In this document: positions 9,875-46,145 of the stretch, in pieces
Position numbering within the stretch: the stretch's first letter is position 1
Layout of the letters: every line of letters starts with the position of its first letter
Origin: Arthrobacter sp. B1805
GTDB taxonomy: Bacteria; Actinomycetota; Actinomycetes; Actinomycetales; Micrococcaceae
Assembly: GCF_002929745.1 (NCBI RefSeq)
Contig: NZ_PJIQ01000001.1
Span: forward strand, 174,850 to 238,849
Reading direction: 5' to 3'
DNA length: 64,000 nucleotides
Position numbers and translations under genes: made by a program
Notes under the pieces: generated by a model
What the model was told of the DNA's origin: nothing
Databases searched by the model: none
Seen by the model: only the letters and a program-made list of their open reading frames with translations

Positions 9875-11131
9875 TCAGCGGCGGCTCGCGAGGCCGGCCC
9901 TGAACGCATCAGCCGAGGCCGTGGTGCTGTTGATGCGCCAGTCGGTTTCCTTGTTGATGTGGAACCAGACGAGCCCCATGACATCCTGCTGCGCCGAGAG
10001 ATAGCCGAACAGGTTGGTGATCCACTGGGCCTTCGATCCGCCGCTCTCGGCCGAGGCGGTTTCCCCGATCATGATCGGGACGCCGGGAGCGAGCGTGCGG
10101 AGCTGGGCCAGGCCTTCGCCGAACAGCGCCTCGGGTTCCTGCCAGCCGCTCCAGGACTGCGACGTGCCCCAGTTGTATCCGTCCAATGCCACGACGTCCG
10201 CATACCCCTGGCCCGGGTACAGCGCCTCGAGCGGGGTCGAGCCCCAGTAGGGGACGTTCGGGCTCCAGACCCAGCTGATGTTGCTGGCCCCGGTCGATGC
10301 GACGACGTCGTGTACATGGCGGTAGGCCGCGATGTAGTCACCTGGGCCATTGCCGTTGACGCCTTCGGCCCACGGGTACCAGTCGCCGTTCATCTCGTGA
10401 GCGAACCGCAGGTACACGGGGTGACCCCATGTCGCGAGAGTGGTGCCCCATTCGCGCAGGTAGGCGTCGTAGTCCCCGGCGGCTATCCGGTCGAGGGAGT
10501 AGGCGGGCTGCGAGGTGCCGCCTCCCCAGGTCCAGGGCTCCCAGGTCAGGAGGGTCTCCGCTCCGCGGGCGCGCGCTGCGTCGAGCTCCGCGATCGGCGC
10601 CGGCTGGTTGAAGTCCTTGTAGGAGAGCACGATCGAGGGCGCCTCTCCCGCGAGGGCGGCCACCTCGTCCAGCTCGCCGCCGGCCGAGGGCCCGCCGTTG
10701 GTGCCGATCCCGAACCGGAGGGACTTGGGGGAGTCGTTCACGGGTGCGGGTTCGACGACGGTGAAGGCAGCTGTCGCGACGGCGGCACCGACCGTAGCCG
10801 TGACCGTGACCTGACCCGGCTGGGCAGGCATCATGATCGACGTCTGGAAATAGCCTGTGGACGTCGTCGTGATGGCCACCTTGGCGCTGCCGGCAACCAC
10901 TGTTCCCTTGCTCCGCTTGGGAAATCCTGCTCCCGTCACGGCCACCGGCGTACCCGGCTCTCCGGAGGTGCTGCTGAGCGTGATCCTTGCCGGCTGGGCC
11001 GGGGCCGCCTGGGCGGGCGGAGGAGCCAGCCCGACCATGAGGGTGGCGATCGCCGTGGCGAGGAGGAGGAGCCGGAAGGCTGTTCCGCGGACGGGGCCAA
11101 CGGATGATGGGGTAGCGGTGGCTGGAAGCAT
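9875..11131 (-). CDS. Secreted GH26 glycoside hydrolase with Ig-like domain
   Basis: A 418-residue secreted enzyme. Signal peptide at about residues 14-42, ending near AQAAPAQ. An IPT/Ig-like domain follows (about 47-125, SGEPGTPVAVTGAGFPKRS). The catalytic (beta/alpha)8 barrel shows the acid/base E246 in RFAHEMNGDWYPW and the nucleophile E357 in IGETAS. GH26 includes beta-1,4-mannanases and beta-1,3/1,4-glucanases; the FAHEMNGDWYPW type is closer to the glucanase/mixed-specificity branch than to the second GH26 here. The ATG at 11131 is used because AGGTAGG lies 8 nt upstream; a GTG at 11140 is less likely. Translation is probably controlled by the riboswitch directly upstream. Confidence 0.85.
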   Translation of the reverse strand: MLPATATPSSVGPVRGTAFRLLLLATAIATLMVGLAPPPAQAAPAQPARITLSSTSGEPGTPVAVTGAGFPKRSKGTVVAGSAKVAITTTSTGYFQTSIMMPAQPGQVTVTATVGAAVATAAFTVVEPAPVNDSPKSLRFGIGTNGGPSAGGELDEVAALAGEAPSIVLSYKDFNQPAPIAELDAARARGAETLLTWEPWTWGGGTSQPAYSLDRIAAGDYDAYLREWGTTLATWGHPVYLRFAHEMNGDWYPWAEGVNGNGPGDYIAAYRHVHDVVASTGASNISWVWSPNVPYWGSTPLEALYPGQGYADVVALDGYNWGTSQSWSGWQEPEALFGEGLAQLRTLAPGVPIMIGETASAESGGSKAQWITNLFGYLSAQQDVMGLVWFHINKETDWRINSTTASADAFRAGLASRR

Positions 11132-11219
11132 GATCGGCACCTACCTGGTCGGTAGCCCGGCTGACCGCGTGGGTCCCGTGGCTTTGCGTCCCCGGCTCGC
11201 GCCGGGTTTGCCCTCGACG
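11132..11219 (-). ncRNA. Cyclic-di-GMP class I (GEMM-I) riboswitch and SD hairpin
   Basis: Read on the minus strand, the leader contains in order GGGCAAACC, a 6-bp stem capped by a GCGA (GNRA) tetraloop, the highly conserved GACGCAAAGCC (11/11 match to the Vc2 aptamer core), a short second stem (GACC/GGTC) and the 3' motif CAGCCGGGCTACCGA. These are the hallmarks of the GEMM-I aptamer. The 3' CTACC can instead pair with GGTAG of the Shine-Dalgarno region of the GH26 gene (CTACC-GACCA-GGTAG), giving a simple translational switch. The aptamer core is about 11148-11216. Identification is by motif reading; no covariance search was run. Confidence 0.85.
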
Positions 11220-11415
11220 CCGGGCGGGTGCCCGAGCGCCGTGTTCCACCCTGGCGGCGGAACGTCTCCCATTGTCCCCGGAAGCCCTGTCCTGTGGGCC
11301 GCTGCGAGCCCAAGGATGACGAAGGATTCCTGCAGTTCTCGCGCAGGACGGAGGGCTCGCCCGGTTCCCGGTTCCCGTCTTCCCCGGTAGGCGTCATCGT
11401 CCGGCGCGGGTCGGA

Positions 11416-12630
11416 TCAGGCGAAGGACACCGACCGCAGGGTGCGCGGGGACAATCGGTCCTGCAGGACCAGGGTTGCGGCCCCGAGGGCCGCCGCGTCG
11501 TTCCCGTTGACCGACAGGCGGACCTCCACGGGATGAATGGCCCGTGCCATGGCCCGGTGCGACAGGGCCTCCGAAATGATGTCCACATAGAAGCCGCCGG
11601 CGGTCGAGAAGGCGCTGCCGGCGAGCACGATGAGTTGCAGGTCGAGGAGGTTCACCATTGAGATCACCGCGCTCGCCACGTACTCGGCAGACTCGTGCAT
11701 CAGTCGCAGGGCGGTCTCGTCACCGTTCGTCGCGGCCGTCCCCACGGCAGCGAAGTCTTCGGAGATCACTCCCGTGAGCGGGATGTCGAGGTCGCCCCGG
11801 GCAGCAGCTTCGGCTGCCTGCGCGACGACGATCCTCGGGCTCGCATACAGCTCGAGGCAGCCGATGTTGCCGCAGGGACACTGCAGTCCCCTCGCATCCA
11901 CCGTGACATGCCCGATCTCGCCGACATTCGAGCTAACGCCCTGGTAGATGGTGCCGTCCATGACGATGCCCGAGCCGATGCCGGACCCCATGTAGACGGA
12001 GGCGTAGTTCGCGTAGCCCTCGGTGGCACCGAGCCAGTACTCGCCGATGGCCGCTGCCGTCGCGTCATTGTCGAACTCGCAGTGGAAGCCGGTGGTAGAG
12101 GACAGGGCGCGCCGGATGGGGAAGTCGCTCCAGATCTCGAGGGACGGAGCGTTTCGGACCGTACCTGCAGCGCGGTCCAGCGGGCCCGGAGTCGCGATGC
12201 CCATCCCCACGATGCTGTTGCGGTCCACACCGGACTCGAGGATGAGTGCGTCGATATCCCTGGTCATCCGGCTGACCACCGTCAGGGGAGAGGTGTCCCC
12301 AGGGCCGTCGACGCGTCGCCTGCCGATGACGTGGCCGCGCAGGTCCGCGATGATGTAGGTGATGTAGTCCTGGCCGATGTGTACTCCGACTCCGAGCCGG
12401 GATGCCGGGTTGAGTTCCAGGAACATGCGTGGTTTGCCGCCCGTGGATTCCCCACGGCCCGATTCGACGATGATGTCCTCCGTCAGGAGGGTCCGGACCA
12501 GCGTGGAGATGGTGGCCTGTGTCAGTCCGGTCTTCTCGGCGAGTTCCACACGGCTGATGGGTCCGCTGGAGCGGATCAGATCGATGACCTTGCCCCGGGA
12601 GGACTCGCGGCGGCGGGTCTTTTCGATCAC
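11416..12630 (-). CDS. ROK-family transcriptional repressor
   Basis: A 404-residue NagC/XylR-type regulator. N-terminal winged helix (residues about 15-65, ISRVELAEKTGLTQATISTLVRTL). C-terminal ROK domain with the EIGHVTVDARGLQCPCGNIGCLE signature, including the zinc cysteines. It lies between the two GH26 genes of the mannan locus and most likely represses them and the ABC operon in the absence of a mannose-type inducer. Start: a promoter (12636-12664) has its -10 overlapping the TTG at 12636, so the GTG at 12630, 5 nt after the -10, is preferred and the transcript would be leaderless. Confidence 0.85.
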   Translation of the reverse strand: MIEKTRRRESSRGKVIDLIRSSGPISRVELAEKTGLTQATISTLVRTLLTEDIIVESGRGESTGGKPRMFLELNPASRLGVGVHIGQDYITYIIADLRGHVIGRRRVDGPGDTSPLTVVSRMTRDIDALILESGVDRNSIVGMGIATPGPLDRAAGTVRNAPSLEIWSDFPIRRALSSTTGFHCEFDNDATAAAIGEYWLGATEGYANYASVYMGSGIGSGIVMDGTIYQGVSSNVGEIGHVTVDARGLQCPCGNIGCLELYASPRIVVAQAAEAAARGDLDIPLTGVISEDFAAVGTAATNGDETALRLMHESAEYVASAVISMVNLLDLQLIVLAGSAFSTAGGFYVDIISEALSHRAMARAIHPVEVRLSVNGNDAAALGAATLVLQDRLSPRTLRSVSFA

Positions 12631-13397: not shown

Positions 13398-15479
13398 CTA
13401 CCTCGCGATGATGTCGTCGACGTAGACGGTGCCGCTGGTGACGCCGGCACCACCCTGGCCCAGGTAGAGGCTGAACTGCGTGACCTTCGCGAGCTTCGCC
13501 GCATCGAGGACGGCACCGGCGTGTGCCGTGTCCCACGACGCCGGCGCGAACTCCGAGAACGGCGCTGATAGCTGCAGCGGCGCGGTGCCGGACAGCGGCA
13601 CGTTGTACTCGAAGTAGATCCCGTCGGCCACGACCTGCAAAGTCGCGCCGGTACCGGAATCGTCCGGAAGCATCCAGGCGTCGAGGGTCGTGAAACCGGA
13701 CCAGTCCTGATCCACCGTCCGGCCGATGCCCGTGTAGCTCTGCGACGTGAAGTCGTAGCTGTAGGACAGACCGTAACTGCCGGATGCCCTGTTCTCGGTC
13801 GAATGGGCGATCGAATTGACTCCGGCGCTCGTGTACGTCTCGTCGAGGGTCACATCGTCTCCCGAGTAACCCTCGAAGGTGTCGACCACGCCGGGCACGG
13901 CAACGGGGGCGGGTCCGAGGAGGAGGAGCGCCGAATCCGTGAAAGTGGCCTTCGAACCCCGGCCGTTGCCCTCTGTGACGGTGGCGCGCACGGTCGCCGT
14001 GCGCGCCTCCACGTTGCCGTCCGGAATGGTGTAGGTGCCGGTGTAGTAGCCCTGCTCGTCGAGTGCAAGGGGCTGTGCAGGCCCGCCGTCGACCGTGTAG
14101 GTGGCGCTGGCTTTCCTGACACCGGTCGCGCTGACGCGGATGGTCGCCGTCGTGCCGGTGACGCGCTGGCGATCGGTCGGCGTGACGATGTGGACGCTCG
14201 GCTGCTGCTTGACCGGCGTGGTGCGCCGGTCGAAGACATTCGTCAGGTCGCCCGCGAAATAACTCGCGGGGTCGGCGTGGAACGCACGGAAGTCCTGCAT
14301 GAGTTCGTGCTCCGGCGTCGTCCCGAAGGCGGGGTACGGCACGTAGTGCTGTTCGAGGCCGAAGTTCGCCCAAGTCTGCGCGTACGCGATCCGCGCCGAG
14401 TCGGGATTGCTCCGCAACGCGTCGAGGATGCTGGTGTACCACTGCAGGTCGGGGTTCTGGCCGTTGGGCTTCAGCGCCCCGCTCATGCCGAATTCCGTCA
14501 GAGCGGAGATCTTCCCCTTCTCGTCCGCCAGTCGGGAGATCATGGCGGTGTCCGCGACGAGAGAATCGAGCCACTGCTGGCTGCCGTTCGTCCCGTCGTA
14601 CAGGTCGTATCCCAGGATGTCGACGAAGTCGTCGCCGGGGTAGGTCTTCAGATAGGTCTCATCGGTACCACCGAACGTCCCGTTGGGCGAGTAGGCATAC
14701 AGGAAGTTGTGGACACCCTTCGTGTCGCGAAGATACTCGACCGTATAGCGGAAGATCTCCTGGTACTCGGCACTCGTGGTGTGGCCTGCGCCCCACCAGA
14801 ACCAGCCGCCGTTGTTCTCGTGCCAGGGCCGGAAGATGATCGGGATCTGCCGGCCGGACTCGTCGACGGACTTCGAGGCGACGTCCGCGAAGGCATCCAG
14901 GTAGTCAAGGAATGCGGCGTTGTCCGGCCCGCCGGGCAGGATCTGGCGGACGGCGTTGCCGCCGGTGTCGTTGTAGCGCCCGCCCGCCGCGAAGTTCGGG
15001 AAGTGGGCGCTGATGGTGTTGATTCCACCCAGCGCGTCGGCCTTCTGTATCCCGTCGACGAGCAGTTCGGCGTTCTCCTCCAGGGACGCACCCTGGATGC
15101 CCGGGCGCTCGTCGCCCGTGAGGATCAGGGAGTCCCAGCCGAAGATCGCCGGGAAGTCACCGACTCCGTTCCTCACGTCGGACGCCAGCCCGGCCGGCGC
15201 GGGATCGGTGACGGCGTAATCGGTGGTGTGCTGGTGCCCGAACAGGATGCCGGTGCCGCGCACCGACTGCAGGTAGGCGAAGAGGGAGCGCGTTTCTGCA
15301 GTGGCGCTGCCGTCCACGAGGTCGACGGCGACCGGAGGACCTCCGCGCTGGGCGCCGGGTGCCGGTGGGGCTGCCGAAGCGGGGCCGGCCGATACGAGCG
15401 CAGCAGCGAGCGCGCCGACGACCACGAGCGCCGTCACCGATCGTCTGCGGTACGAGGACCGGGATTCATGACGGAGCAA
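13398..15479 (-). CDS. manB: Secreted GH26 beta-mannanase with C-terminal carbohydrate-binding region
   Basis: A 693-residue secreted enzyme expected to cleave beta-1,4-mannan outside the cell. A Tat/Sec-like signal peptide (RRRSVTALVVVGALAAAL...ASA) precedes the GH26 barrel. Barrel landmarks: GHQHTTDYAV, acid/base E221 in FRPWHENNGGWFWWG and nucleophile E329 in LTEFG, all as in true GH26 mannanases. Residues from about 460 form an Ig-like domain and from about 550 a beta-sandwich that looks like a CBM. The TTG at 15479 has AAGGAGA 7 nt upstream and gives a normal signal peptide; a GTG at 15533 is possible but has no good ribosome site. Divergent from the ABC importer operon. Confidence 0.9.
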   Translation of the reverse strand: MLRHESRSSYRRRSVTALVVVGALAAALVSAGPASAAPPAPGAQRGGPPVAVDLVDGSATAETRSLFAYLQSVRGTGILFGHQHTTDYAVTDPAPAGLASDVRNGVGDFPAIFGWDSLILTGDERPGIQGASLEENAELLVDGIQKADALGGINTISAHFPNFAAGGRYNDTGGNAVRQILPGGPDNAAFLDYLDAFADVASKSVDESGRQIPIIFRPWHENNGGWFWWGAGHTTSAEYQEIFRYTVEYLRDTKGVHNFLYAYSPNGTFGGTDETYLKTYPGDDFVDILGYDLYDGTNGSQQWLDSLVADTAMISRLADEKGKISALTEFGMSGALKPNGQNPDLQWYTSILDALRSNPDSARIAYAQTWANFGLEQHYVPYPAFGTTPEHELMQDFRAFHADPASYFAGDLTNVFDRRTTPVKQQPSVHIVTPTDRQRVTGTTATIRVSATGVRKASATYTVDGGPAQPLALDEQGYYTGTYTIPDGNVEARTATVRATVTEGNGRGSKATFTDSALLLLGPAPVAVPGVVDTFEGYSGDDVTLDETYTSAGVNSIAHSTENRASGSYGLSYSYDFTSQSYTGIGRTVDQDWSGFTTLDAWMLPDDSGTGATLQVVADGIYFEYNVPLSGTAPLQLSAPFSEFAPASWDTAHAGAVLDAAKLAKVTQFSLYLGQGGAGVTSGTVYVDDIIAR

Positions 15480-15541
15480 TGCAGTTCTCCTTCGAAAGGC
15501 ATTCCGGCGGGTCTGGGATGAGACGTAAGCCACTGACTTAC

Positions 15542-21226: not shown

Positions 21227-23815
21227 ATGAACCTCACGACCATCGCCCCACAGATCCTGGACCTGGGCGGCGCCTGGAACCTGACCTGGACCGCAGGGCC
21301 GGACGACGCCCCGTCCTACGCGACGGCCGGTGCGCCGATCCCGGCCACCGTGCCGGGGCAGGTCCACACCGACCTGCTGGCCGCCGGCCTGCTCGAGGAC
21401 CCGGACGTCGGCTTGCGGGAAGCGGACCAGATGTGGATTGGGCACTCGCAGTGGACGTACTCGCGGCGCTTCGAGTGGAACGCCGATCTGTCGGGAGACC
21501 GCATCGAGCTCGTCGCCGACGGCCTCGACACCTTCGCCACCGTCCGGCTGAACGGTCACGAGATCGCGGTGACCGCGGACCAGCACATCGGGTATCGCTG
21601 GAACGTCGCCCACCTCCTCGTGTCCGGTGATAACCTCCTCGACATCACGTTCGGGTCCGCCTGGGACGCGGCCCACGAGTGCGAGGCCAAGCTCGGCGAG
21701 CTGCCCCGCCCCTATGACGAGCCCTACCCCTATGTGCGCAAGAGCGCGTGCAACTTCGGCTGGGACTGGGGGCCACACTATGTCACCGCCGGCATCTGGC
21801 AGCCGATCCGGCTCGAGGCGTGGTCACGCGCCCGGATCGATTCGATCCGACCCGACGTGGTGTTGGAGGCGGGCGCGGCACGCGTCAGCGTGAGTGTGGG
21901 TGTCGAACACCAGGGGCCGACGTCGGGCCTGTCGGTCGACGCTGTCCTCACCGCCCCGGACGGCACCGAGTCCGCGCGAGTGAGTGTCCCGGCGGACGGG
22001 AGCGACGTCGTCCTCGGGCTGGACGTCGCCGATCCACAGCTGTGGTGGCCCGTCGGACTCGGTGGGCAACCGCTGTACGGACTGTCCGTCGAGGTGCGGG
22101 ACGAGCACGGGACGTTGTCGTCCGCCGAGCGGCGCATCGGTCTGCGCACCGTGGTCGTCGAGGAGAAGCCCGACGCCGTCGGGACCACGTGGGCGCTGGT
22201 GGTCAACGGCCGCCGTGTCCGGGTGCGTGGCTACAACTGGATCCCCGACGACCCCTTCATCGCGGAGGTCACGGAGGAACGGCTGGGACAGCGTCTGGAC
22301 CAGGCGGTCGACGGCGGAGCCAACCTGCTGCGCGTGTGGGGCGGAGGCTACTTCTCCACCGAGGAGTTCATGGCAGGCTGTGACGAGCGCGGGCTCATGG
22401 TCTGGCACGACTTCCTCTTCGCCTGCGCCGCGTACGACGAGTCGGCCGCCATGATCGACGCAGTGACCACGGAGGCCGAGCAGGCCGTTGCGCGGCTGTC
22501 CTCCCACCCGAGCCTCATGATCTGGTGTGGTGGCAACGAGTGCGTCTGGGGCATGTACGACTGGGGGTGGTCCGAAATCCTCGACGGGCGCCCCTACGGA
22601 GCAGCCTTCTACACCGAGGTGCTCCCGGGTGTCCTCGGCAGGCTCGATCCGTCCCGTCCCTACGTGCCCAACAGTCCGTGGTCAGGCTCACTCGACAAGC
22701 ACCCGAATGACCGCGACTCCGGGCCCGTGCACATCTGGGAGGTGTGGAACAACGTCGACTTCGTGCACTACCGGGACGTCGACCCGCCCTTCGTCTCCGA
22801 GATGGGATGGTGCGCGCCGCCCGCCTGGTCGACACTGCAGCGTGTCGTGACAGAAGGCGAGCTCGTCCCGGGCAACCCGCAGGTGGCACACCACATGCGG
22901 GCCGCCGAGGGCATGGAGAAACTGGCGAGGGGACTGGCGCCGTACTTCGGCGAGCCGGAGGCGGCCGAGGACTGGCATTACCTCACGCAGATGGTGCAGG
23001 CCCGCTCCCAGGTCGCGGGCGCCGAGTGGTTGCGTACCCGCGAACGGTGCGCGGGCGTGGTCATCTGGCAGCTGAACGACTGCTGGCCCGTGCTGAGCTG
23101 GTCCGCCGTCGACGGCGACGGGATCGAGAAGCCCGTCTGGTATGCGCTCCGGCGCTCCTTCGCCGAACGGCTTCTGGCAATCGTGCCGGTCACTGCCGGC
23201 GGGACCGATGACCCGACGGGCCCGGACGGGCTCGAGGTGGTCGTCGTCAACGACGGCCTGAGCGACTGGACGGCCGACGTCGTCGTGCGCCGGCTCGGGC
23301 TCGACGGTGCGGAGATCGCCCGGGAACAGGTCAGCCTGACAGCCGCGGCGGACGGCACGTCCCGTTCGCTCCTGCCCGCCGCGCTGGTCGCACCGAGCGA
23401 GCGCGAGTTCCTCGTCGCCGACGCCGGCGGCTTCCGCTCCACCTGGTTCTTCAGGCCCGATGCGGCACTCACGCCCGTGGAGCCGCGGTTCTCGGCCCGT
23501 GCTGTCATCGAGGAGGGTGCACTCCGTGTCACCGTCGAGGCGCAGTCGCTGCTGCGCGACCTGTGCCTGTTCGCGGACCGTCTCGCGGATCAGCTCGGAG
23601 TATCGGCGCCGGACCTGACCGTCGACGACATGATGCTGACCCTCCTGCCGGGGGAATCCGCGGTCTTCACCGTCAGCAGGCGGGACGGCGCTCCCCTCGA
23701 TGTGCAGGCGGACCTCTCGGCGGCCGAACTGTTCCCCGTCATCCGCTGCATCGGTGACGGCGCGGCCCTGGTGCCGGCCTACTCCGACGAGTCTGCAGGG
23801 GACATCGCACGATGA
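21227..23815 (+). CDS. GH2 beta-mannosidase
   Basis: An 862-residue cytoplasmic GH2 enzyme that removes terminal beta-mannose from imported manno-oligosaccharides. Domains in order: N-terminal jelly roll (about 10-190, with KSACNFGWDWGPHYVTAGIW, a beta-mannosidase signature), Ig-like domain (about 190-300), TIM barrel (about 300-610) with acid/base E438 in CGGNECVWG and nucleophile E525 in FVSEMGW, and C-terminal beta domains. No signal peptide. Directly downstream of the ABC importer and overlapping the sugar kinase by 4 bp (ATGA), which strongly supports a manno-oligosaccharide role. Confidence 0.93.
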   Translation: MNLTTIAPQILDLGGAWNLTWTAGPDDAPSYATAGAPIPATVPGQVHTDLLAAGLLEDPDVGLREADQMWIGHSQWTYSRRFEWNADLSGDRIELVADGLDTFATVRLNGHEIAVTADQHIGYRWNVAHLLVSGDNLLDITFGSAWDAAHECEAKLGELPRPYDEPYPYVRKSACNFGWDWGPHYVTAGIWQPIRLEAWSRARIDSIRPDVVLEAGAARVSVSVGVEHQGPTSGLSVDAVLTAPDGTESARVSVPADGSDVVLGLDVADPQLWWPVGLGGQPLYGLSVEVRDEHGTLSSAERRIGLRTVVVEEKPDAVGTTWALVVNGRRVRVRGYNWIPDDPFIAEVTEERLGQRLDQAVDGGANLLRVWGGGYFSTEEFMAGCDERGLMVWHDFLFACAAYDESAAMIDAVTTEAEQAVARLSSHPSLMIWCGGNECVWGMYDWGWSEILDGRPYGAAFYTEVLPGVLGRLDPSRPYVPNSPWSGSLDKHPNDRDSGPVHIWEVWNNVDFVHYRDVDPPFVSEMGWCAPPAWSTLQRVVTEGELVPGNPQVAHHMRAAEGMEKLARGLAPYFGEPEAAEDWHYLTQMVQARSQVAGAEWLRTRERCAGVVIWQLNDCWPVLSWSAVDGDGIEKPVWYALRRSFAERLLAIVPVTAGGTDDPTGPDGLEVVVVNDGLSDWTADVVVRRLGLDGAEIAREQVSLTAAADGTSRSLLPAALVAPSEREFLVADAGGFRSTWFFRPDAALTPVEPRFSARAVIEEGALRVTVEAQSLLRDLCLFADRLADQLGVSAPDLTVDDMMLTLLPGESAVFTVSRRDGAPLDVQADLSAAELFPVIRCIGDGAALVPAYSDESAGDIAR

Positions 23816-45704: not shown

Positions 45705-46019
45705 TCAGTGAACGAGCTTGAGCCCTATGACGCCGCCTACGATCATGAGCAGGAACAGTATCTTGAGCAGGGACGCAGGCTCGGTGCCGGTCGCCATCGC
45801 GTAGATCACCGTCAGCGACGCGCCGATCCCCACCCAGACGGCGTAGGCCGTTCCGGTGGGCAGTGTTCGCATGGCGTACGCGAGGCCTGCCATGCTGGCG
45901 ATGATCGCAACGGCGAACACCAGGGTCGGCGCCACCTTGCTGAAACCCTCGGACTTGCCGAGCGCTGTCGCCCAGACAGCTTCCAGGACTCCCGAGACAA
46001 CGAGGACTATCCAGGCCAT
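45705..46019 (-). CDS. SMR-family efflux protein (SugE/Gdx type)
   Basis: A 104-residue four-helix small multidrug resistance protein. The key glutamate is in helix 1 (VLVVSGVLEAVWATALGKSEGFS). The WATALGKSEGFSK sequence resembles SugE/Gdx guanidinium exporters more than EmrE. The rest follows the family: AMRTLPTGTAYAVWVGIGASLTV and the final helix GGVIGLKL. It works as a dual-topology dimer. There is no partner SMR gene and no clear guanidine riboswitch upstream, so the substrate stays open (guanidinium or quaternary ammonium). Confidence 0.88.
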   Translation of the reverse strand: MAWIVLVVSGVLEAVWATALGKSEGFSKVAPTLVFAVAIIASMAGLAYAMRTLPTGTAYAVWVGIGASLTVIYAMATGTEPASLLKILFLLMIVGGVIGLKLVH

Positions 46020-46145
46020 GACTCACTCCCATGGGCCGTCTTGTCGCACACCGGGTACGGCACCCCTCGTCCGGGAGACGGATGAATCCGCCTCACATCC
46101 ATGGTTGCACAGGCGGCGGACCGCCCTGCCCGGTGCACCTTTCTC

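Follow-up and report, generated by a model that had tools for sequence, protein, structure and literature searches.

A predicted canonical class-I c-di-GMP riboswitch before a secreted GH26 hydrolase gene in Arthrobacter, and its putative extracellular regulon

The leader of a gene for a secreted glycoside hydrolase of family 26 (GH26) in Arthrobacter sp. B1805 very probably carries a canonical class-I cyclic-di-GMP (GEMM-I) riboswitch, in which ligand binding would alter ribosome access and which, judging from sequence comparison, would belong to a small extracellular regulon. The leader lies in a 64-kb stretch of DNA, analysed as a whole and hereafter called the window. Intact ligand-contact residues, a close and conserved start-codon spacing, and a conserved pairing of aptamer and gene in the genus were all observed in the sequences. 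The GH26 riboswitch itself belongs to a known class; the points of interest are the conserved putative regulon, a proposed relay through an upstream open reading frame (ORF), and an added 5' hairpin, P0. No c-di-GMP riboswitch regulon in Arthrobacter was described in the literature searched, which also contained nothing on topic for a c-di-GMP riboswitch with a glycoside hydrolase in Arthrobacter or Actinobacteria, or in Cellulomonas; accounts of actinobacterial GEMM-I RNAs may exist elsewhere.

Identity of the aptamer and of its target gene

The original prediction, made from the DNA alone, had placed a GEMM-I aptamer on the minus strand before a secreted GH26 gene and named its core elements as GGGCAAACC, a GNRA-capped P2 stem, GACGCAAAGCC and CAGCCGGGCTACCGA. 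All are present, the P2 loop being the GNRA tetraloop GCGA flanked by CCGGC and GCCGG, and the assignment is upheld by covariance scores, canonical contact residues and a PF02156 match in the downstream product (Table 1). The proposed search with Rfam model RF01051 returned a significant match (56.8 bits, cut-off 35), while cmscan of the whole window returned RF03167 at 11221-11147 (-) with 61.3 bits (cut-off 59, E 4.8e-12), a score that was unchanged when a 501-base stretch was searched. The RF03167 alignment puts G11212, A11185 and C11152 at the ligand-contact positions G20, A47 and C92 of Vc2. Together with the RF01051 score, the GNRA loop on P2 and a location on the sense strand of a coding-gene leader, directly 5' of the GH26 ATG, these contacts identify the element as a member of RF01051. 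The distance from aptamer to start codon, given in the original prediction as 20 nt, is 19 nt when taken from the inner 3' P1 base G11150 to the first base of the ATG (11131). The window element shares with RF01051 and Vc2 the core, the GNRA-capped P2, P3 and the three contacts (roles as given in the available text of PMC3764141), and differs in a P1 that is very short, with 2-3 pairs in the model alignment, the extra 5' hairpin P0, and its actinobacterial GH26 and response-regulator targets.

Table 1. Features of the GH26 leader and gene, in window coordinates
Feature	Position	Strand	Basis or detail
Secreted GH26 hydrolase with TIG/Ig-like region, 418 aa (P0001)	9875..11131	-	PF02156
Shine-Dalgarno region AGGTAGG	11140..11146	-	Sequence
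Possible CTACC:GGTAG hairpin (original prediction)	11141..11155	-	-5.5 kcal/mol; includes ligand-contact C11152
Class-I c-di-GMP (GEMM-I) aptamer	11147..11221	-	RF03167 61.3 bits; RF01051 56.8 bits
P0 hairpin abutting the aptamer	11218..11238	-	Folding; 11234-11230 pairs with 11225-11221
Further 5' leader hairpin, 8 bp	11243..11263	-	Folding; 11263-11256 with 11250-11243
Possible -10 element GACAAT	11271..11276	-	By eye

The variant of GEMM-I that senses 3',3'-cGAMP has A at position 20, where the window has G11212 and all 49 genus loci described below have G. Another ligand, or c-di-GMP bound in a different manner, would be conceivable if the element belonged to the c-di-GMP-I-GGC variant family, into which its best Rfam score would file it, since RF03167 outscores RF01051. 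Although the score exceeds the RF03167 cut-off, the consensus of that model has G at the A47-equivalent position (to which, in our reading, the middle G of the name "GGC" refers), whereas the window and 48 of the 49 genus loci have A; the higher score must therefore stem from other parts of the sequence. The available text of PMC3764141 names G20, A47 and C92, plus A48, as key ligand-recognition nucleotides of Vc2, and that of PMC9049102 describes stacking of A47 in c-di-GMP recognition. Because G11212, A11185 and C11152 occupy these positions as in canonical binders, we rejected the GGC filing, which we regard as very unlikely. It is likewise very unlikely that the aptamer is a relic no longer functional in this species: decay does occur in the genus, with a remnant in genome G130 (L238) and a degenerate copy in G271 (L243), but the window copy retains all three contact residues and exceeds both cut-offs. 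On this sequence evidence, we take the window element to be a canonical class-I aptamer that is predicted to bind c-di-GMP.

A second GEMM-I aptamer was found by either model elsewhere in the same genome (3.80 Mb, 79 contigs), at C27:354103-354177, with 150 of 597 candidates scored in the RF03167 run and all 112 in the RF01051 run. A domain search of this genome gave three GGDEF and two EAL matches, so enzymes of c-di-GMP metabolism are encoded.

The product of the GH26 gene, P0001, matches PF02156 at 43.3 bits (cut-off 20.2), with a TIG match under its own cut-off and a signal peptide read by eye from the N-terminus. Its nearest solved sequences are chains of Endoglucanase H (2bv9; E 1.8e-49), mannanases being far weaker matches (7.4e-10 and worse). 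Membership of GH26 is evident from the PF02156 score together with HEMNGDWYPW and IGETASAE, which align with HEANGDWYPW and AEFASAE of Endoglucanase H and which we take to hold the catalytic glutamates; Endoglucanase H is presumably a lichenase. While both glutamate motifs are conserved between the two proteins, P0001 has an added TIG/Ig-like N-terminal region. Further genes in the window encode a second GH26 protein at 13398-15533 (nearest to the mannanase 2bvt, E 2.1e-141), a beta-mannosidase-like GH2 protein at 21227-23815, a solute-binding protein, ABC transporter parts and ROK proteins, and the locus looks, from its gene content, like one for mannan use. A reading of P0001 as a mannanase on these grounds was set aside given the much closer match to Endoglucanase H. 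Because the genes further on in the locus point to mannan and P0001 itself is Endoglucanase H-like, its putative substrate is left between mixed-linkage beta-glucan and mannan, with beta-glucan favoured. Elsewhere in the window, a Guanidine-III riboswitch at 46030-46097 (-) (RF01763, 66 bits) lies just before 45705-46019, which encodes a small multidrug resistance protein (PF00893; closest NCBIfam SugE, under cut-off), the pairing expected for guanidine export.

Distribution of aptamers and targets

A family-wide search with RF03167, using filters that lose weak matches, gave matches in 25 of the 295 genomes, which fall into 6 of the 32 genera. Within the genus (the Arthrobacter group, 38 genomes) RF01051 gave 48 matches across 32 genomes, that of B1805 included. 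These, with one degenerate copy, make up 49 classed loci, comprising 20 before GH26 genes (counting the degenerate L229 and also L206, where Ns mask the gene), 22 before OmpR-type regulator genes and seven before genes for other secreted proteins. The contact residues are G in 49/49, A in 48/49 and C in 49/49. The sole locus with G at the A47 position (L225; genome G299, contig 37) precedes the same response regulator, and its GGC-type pocket offers a natural test of the A47 change.

The seven other targets are one GH5 cellulase (L217, PF00150) and six secreted proteins of a single unnamed family, two of which have FG-GAP repeats. No hydrolase family was found for members L227, L197, L215, L184 and L009 in Pfam at E up to 10, for L192 in Pfam at E 0.01, or for L227 against PDB sequences; L210, one of the six family members, was left out of the Pfam scans. 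An ExDxxE motif is invariant in this family and is, we assume, a hint of GH16.

Orthologues of the GH26 gene occur in 23 of the 38 genomes, at 24 orthologous places with identity of at least 59%. An over-threshold aptamer stands in front of 18 of these places, one has a degenerate aptamer (G271) and one is obscured by Ns (G295); no aptamer was recognised at the remaining four (G278, G301, the second G079 copy and G130, whose leader holds the decayed remnant). Six of the 38 genomes lack the aptamer, five of which also lack a GH26 orthologue; aptamer-less genomes G301 and G306 are 68% and 83% complete. A search of the fetched stretches (one of them short and one with Ns) found no counterpart of the window's ROK or Nei neighbour gene at 11 of the 20 GH26 loci, so the aptamer and GH26 gene seem, from their sequences, to be retained in the genus as one unit.

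The P0 hairpin is a second conserved feature of these leaders. A P0-like stem of at least 4 bp is found in 41 of the 49 genus leaders, while the control rates are 9% for upstream windows and 6% for the 112 GEMM-I places taken from beyond the genus, any of four stem registers being accepted in leaders and controls alike and six loci taken as the same genus being removed from the outside-genus controls. Inspection by eye also shows it in two further genera of the family (loci L253 and L254), so it is not limited to the genus. In the window its outer stem joins 11238-11236 with 11220-11218; as these outer pairs take P1 bases, P0 and P1 may compete. By eye, some GH26 leaders of relatives contain stems resembling the further 5' hairpin.

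GEMM-I pattern matches listed for other actinobacteria include Cellulomonas, Actinotalea, Kineococcus, Rubrobacter and other Arthrobacter, so the window aptamer is not isolated in this group. In Cellulomonas, GEMM-I aptamers (L065, L069, L088, L090 and L100) lie about 60 nt before short BldC-like helix-turn-helix genes; L069 and L088, the two of these five that were scanned, match BldC NF033787 over cut-off. Such targets would tie c-di-GMP to a developmental regulator family through RNA. One genome from another genus of the family (G078) has four aptamers (L019 and L250-L252), whose targets by eye are a TIG plus GH26-like gene, a Flp-type pilin gene cut by a contig end, and two unknown ORFs. 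Two further aptamers (L113 and L025) precede genes for very similar small secreted-looking proteins (MRKSAKIITALS...), with no Pfam family found for either and no NCBIfam family for L113.

Leader organisation and direction of the switch

Binding of c-di-GMP by the aptamer, with G20, A47 and C92 intact, would change how readily ribosomes reach the start region, which lies about 20 nt further 3', and translation of GH26 would then track c-di-GMP. No terminator-like site was found in the window leader (11080-11420). The purine-rich Shine-Dalgarno (SD) region recurs in relatives with similar spacing. A consensus scan found no promoter in the window leader, and ACAATGG, which overlaps the possible -10 element, recurs by eye in the nearest relatives only. 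At the regulator loci an extended -10 element (TGnTAnnWT) stands at one fixed upstream distance in 18 of 22 cases, compared with 0 of 1723 control windows, the pattern having been picked after the sequences were inspected; from its position, the transcript would begin at about P0.

How binding would be conveyed to the ribosome was examined by conservation, complementarity and folding. In the original prediction, CTACC (11155-11151) pairs in the free RNA with GGTAG (11145-11141) of the SD region, and ligand, by holding CTACC, frees the SD to give an ON switch. The 5-bp hairpin can indeed form, at -5.5 kcal/mol, and CTACC includes the ligand-contact C, but its use as a switch found no support: of the 49 leaders, only that of the window has the five Watson-Crick pairs, SD complementarity of the segment shows no general excess (z about 0 over all classes, with the GH26 subset leaning towards it at -0.55), and the pairing is absent from the predicted free fold. 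We therefore rejected it as a general mechanism and consider it improbable. The best anti-SD segment was instead the 5' strand of P3 (mean z -0.78, n = 49; -1.42 in regulator loci), which barely fits the window, where the longest match is 3.

With the aptamer modelled as bound, the start region became easier to open in 17 of 19 leaders in the GH26 class, 12 of 22 in the regulator class and 5 of 7 in the remaining class (L206 omitted because of Ns). The mean bound-minus-free differences, each set against controls with shuffled downstream sequence, were -1.62 vs -1.24 kcal/mol for GH26, -0.56 vs -0.50 for regulator and -1.38 vs -0.62 for other leaders. In the window leader the cost of opening hardly moves (7.82 to 7.10 kcal/mol); the regulator leader of the same genome becomes harder to open (5.66 to 7.07 kcal/mol). 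This modelling, in which opening was hardly better than in the shuffled controls, thus demonstrates no expression platform and does not decide between ON and OFF; we lean slightly to ON. An OFF switch, in which ribosome landing is prevented either by the ligand-bound aptamer together with P0 and P1 or by P1/P0 extended as far as the SD, is possible but somewhat doubtful. It would suit direct targets whose start codon is only about 20 nt past the aptamer. In the window, the 5' flank and the SD spacer share a 7-bp match (CGGCGCT with GGTGCCG, two G-U), and in one Cellulomonas-type relative (L038) an 11-bp match covers the SD. Yet the longest such 5' flank match is 4-5 bp in 41 of the 49 genus leaders and 4-6 bp in the other eight Cellulomonas-type loci examined, and the modelled opening tends in the opposite direction for 17 of the 19 GH26 leaders, a tendency that the shuffled controls share. 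The 7-bp match itself could serve either sign of switch.

The regulator branch and the proposed regulon

Start codons of direct targets lie 55-64 nt 3' of the GACGC core, the spacing being 57-64 nt in 26 of the 27 GH26 and other loci, with the 27th obscured by Ns. At 20 of the 22 regulator loci an upstream ORF of about 32-54 codons starts where the start codon of direct targets sits, and in the other two (L183 and L205) the regulator's own start occupies this position. The stop of the upstream ORF overlaps the regulator start by 4 or 8 nt (mostly 8) in 20/20 loci, taking the overlapping ATG in the nine that have another in-frame regulator start codon. This overlap suggests translational control with a coupling relay. 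A frame-preserving shuffle gave 10.44 of 20 overlaps expected against 20 observed, a modest result given that the loci are related; a stronger argument for the relay is that the 20 loci have ten different spacings, each in the frame that fits its own overlap motif. There is no sign of codon-position bias in the peptide that the upstream ORF encodes (412/393/421). We interpret the upstream ORF as what looks like translational control passed on by coupling. In the B1805 genome, a histidine kinase gene (L245:9776-11524 (+); PF02518 and PF00512) is found close to the response regulator gene that carries the riboswitch, in convergent orientation, and its product is a possible partner of that regulator.

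Two described systems invite comparison. In the available text of PMC12548384, a c-di-GMP riboswitch precedes the OmpR-family response regulators of Clostridioides difficile cmrRST, as here, and is reported to act on transcription, whereas the ORF overlapping the regulator start in the genus loci suggests translation. The Mycobacterium tuberculosis ppe2 B12 riboswitch with uPPE2 is reported, in the available text of PMC11260477, to exert translation control relayed by coupling; it differs from the genus element in its ligand, B12 rather than predicted c-di-GMP, in that the upstream ORF here is found only at regulator loci with none before the window GH26 gene, and in the overlap, which at the genus loci is mostly 8 nt.

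As further copies of the aptamer stand before genes for the OmpR-type regulator (where it would act mostly via the upstream ORF), the GH5 cellulase and the secreted-protein family, a small extracellular regulon would come under a single second messenger. We tentatively propose an RNA-based c-di-GMP regulon, in which a P0-bearing aptamer would control translation of secreted GH26, GH5 and other proteins directly and that of the OmpR-type regulator by a termination-reinitiation relay over a short ORF, whose translation rather than peptide would matter, and which would couple surface life to beta-glucan remodelling or harvesting. The regulator branch provides natural replicates (20 loci, ten spacings) of a riboswitch possibly acting via an upstream ORF. 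If the proposal is true, the compact two-branch regulon of secreted hydrolases and a response regulator would be a simple system for studying the role of c-di-GMP in a soil actinobacterium.
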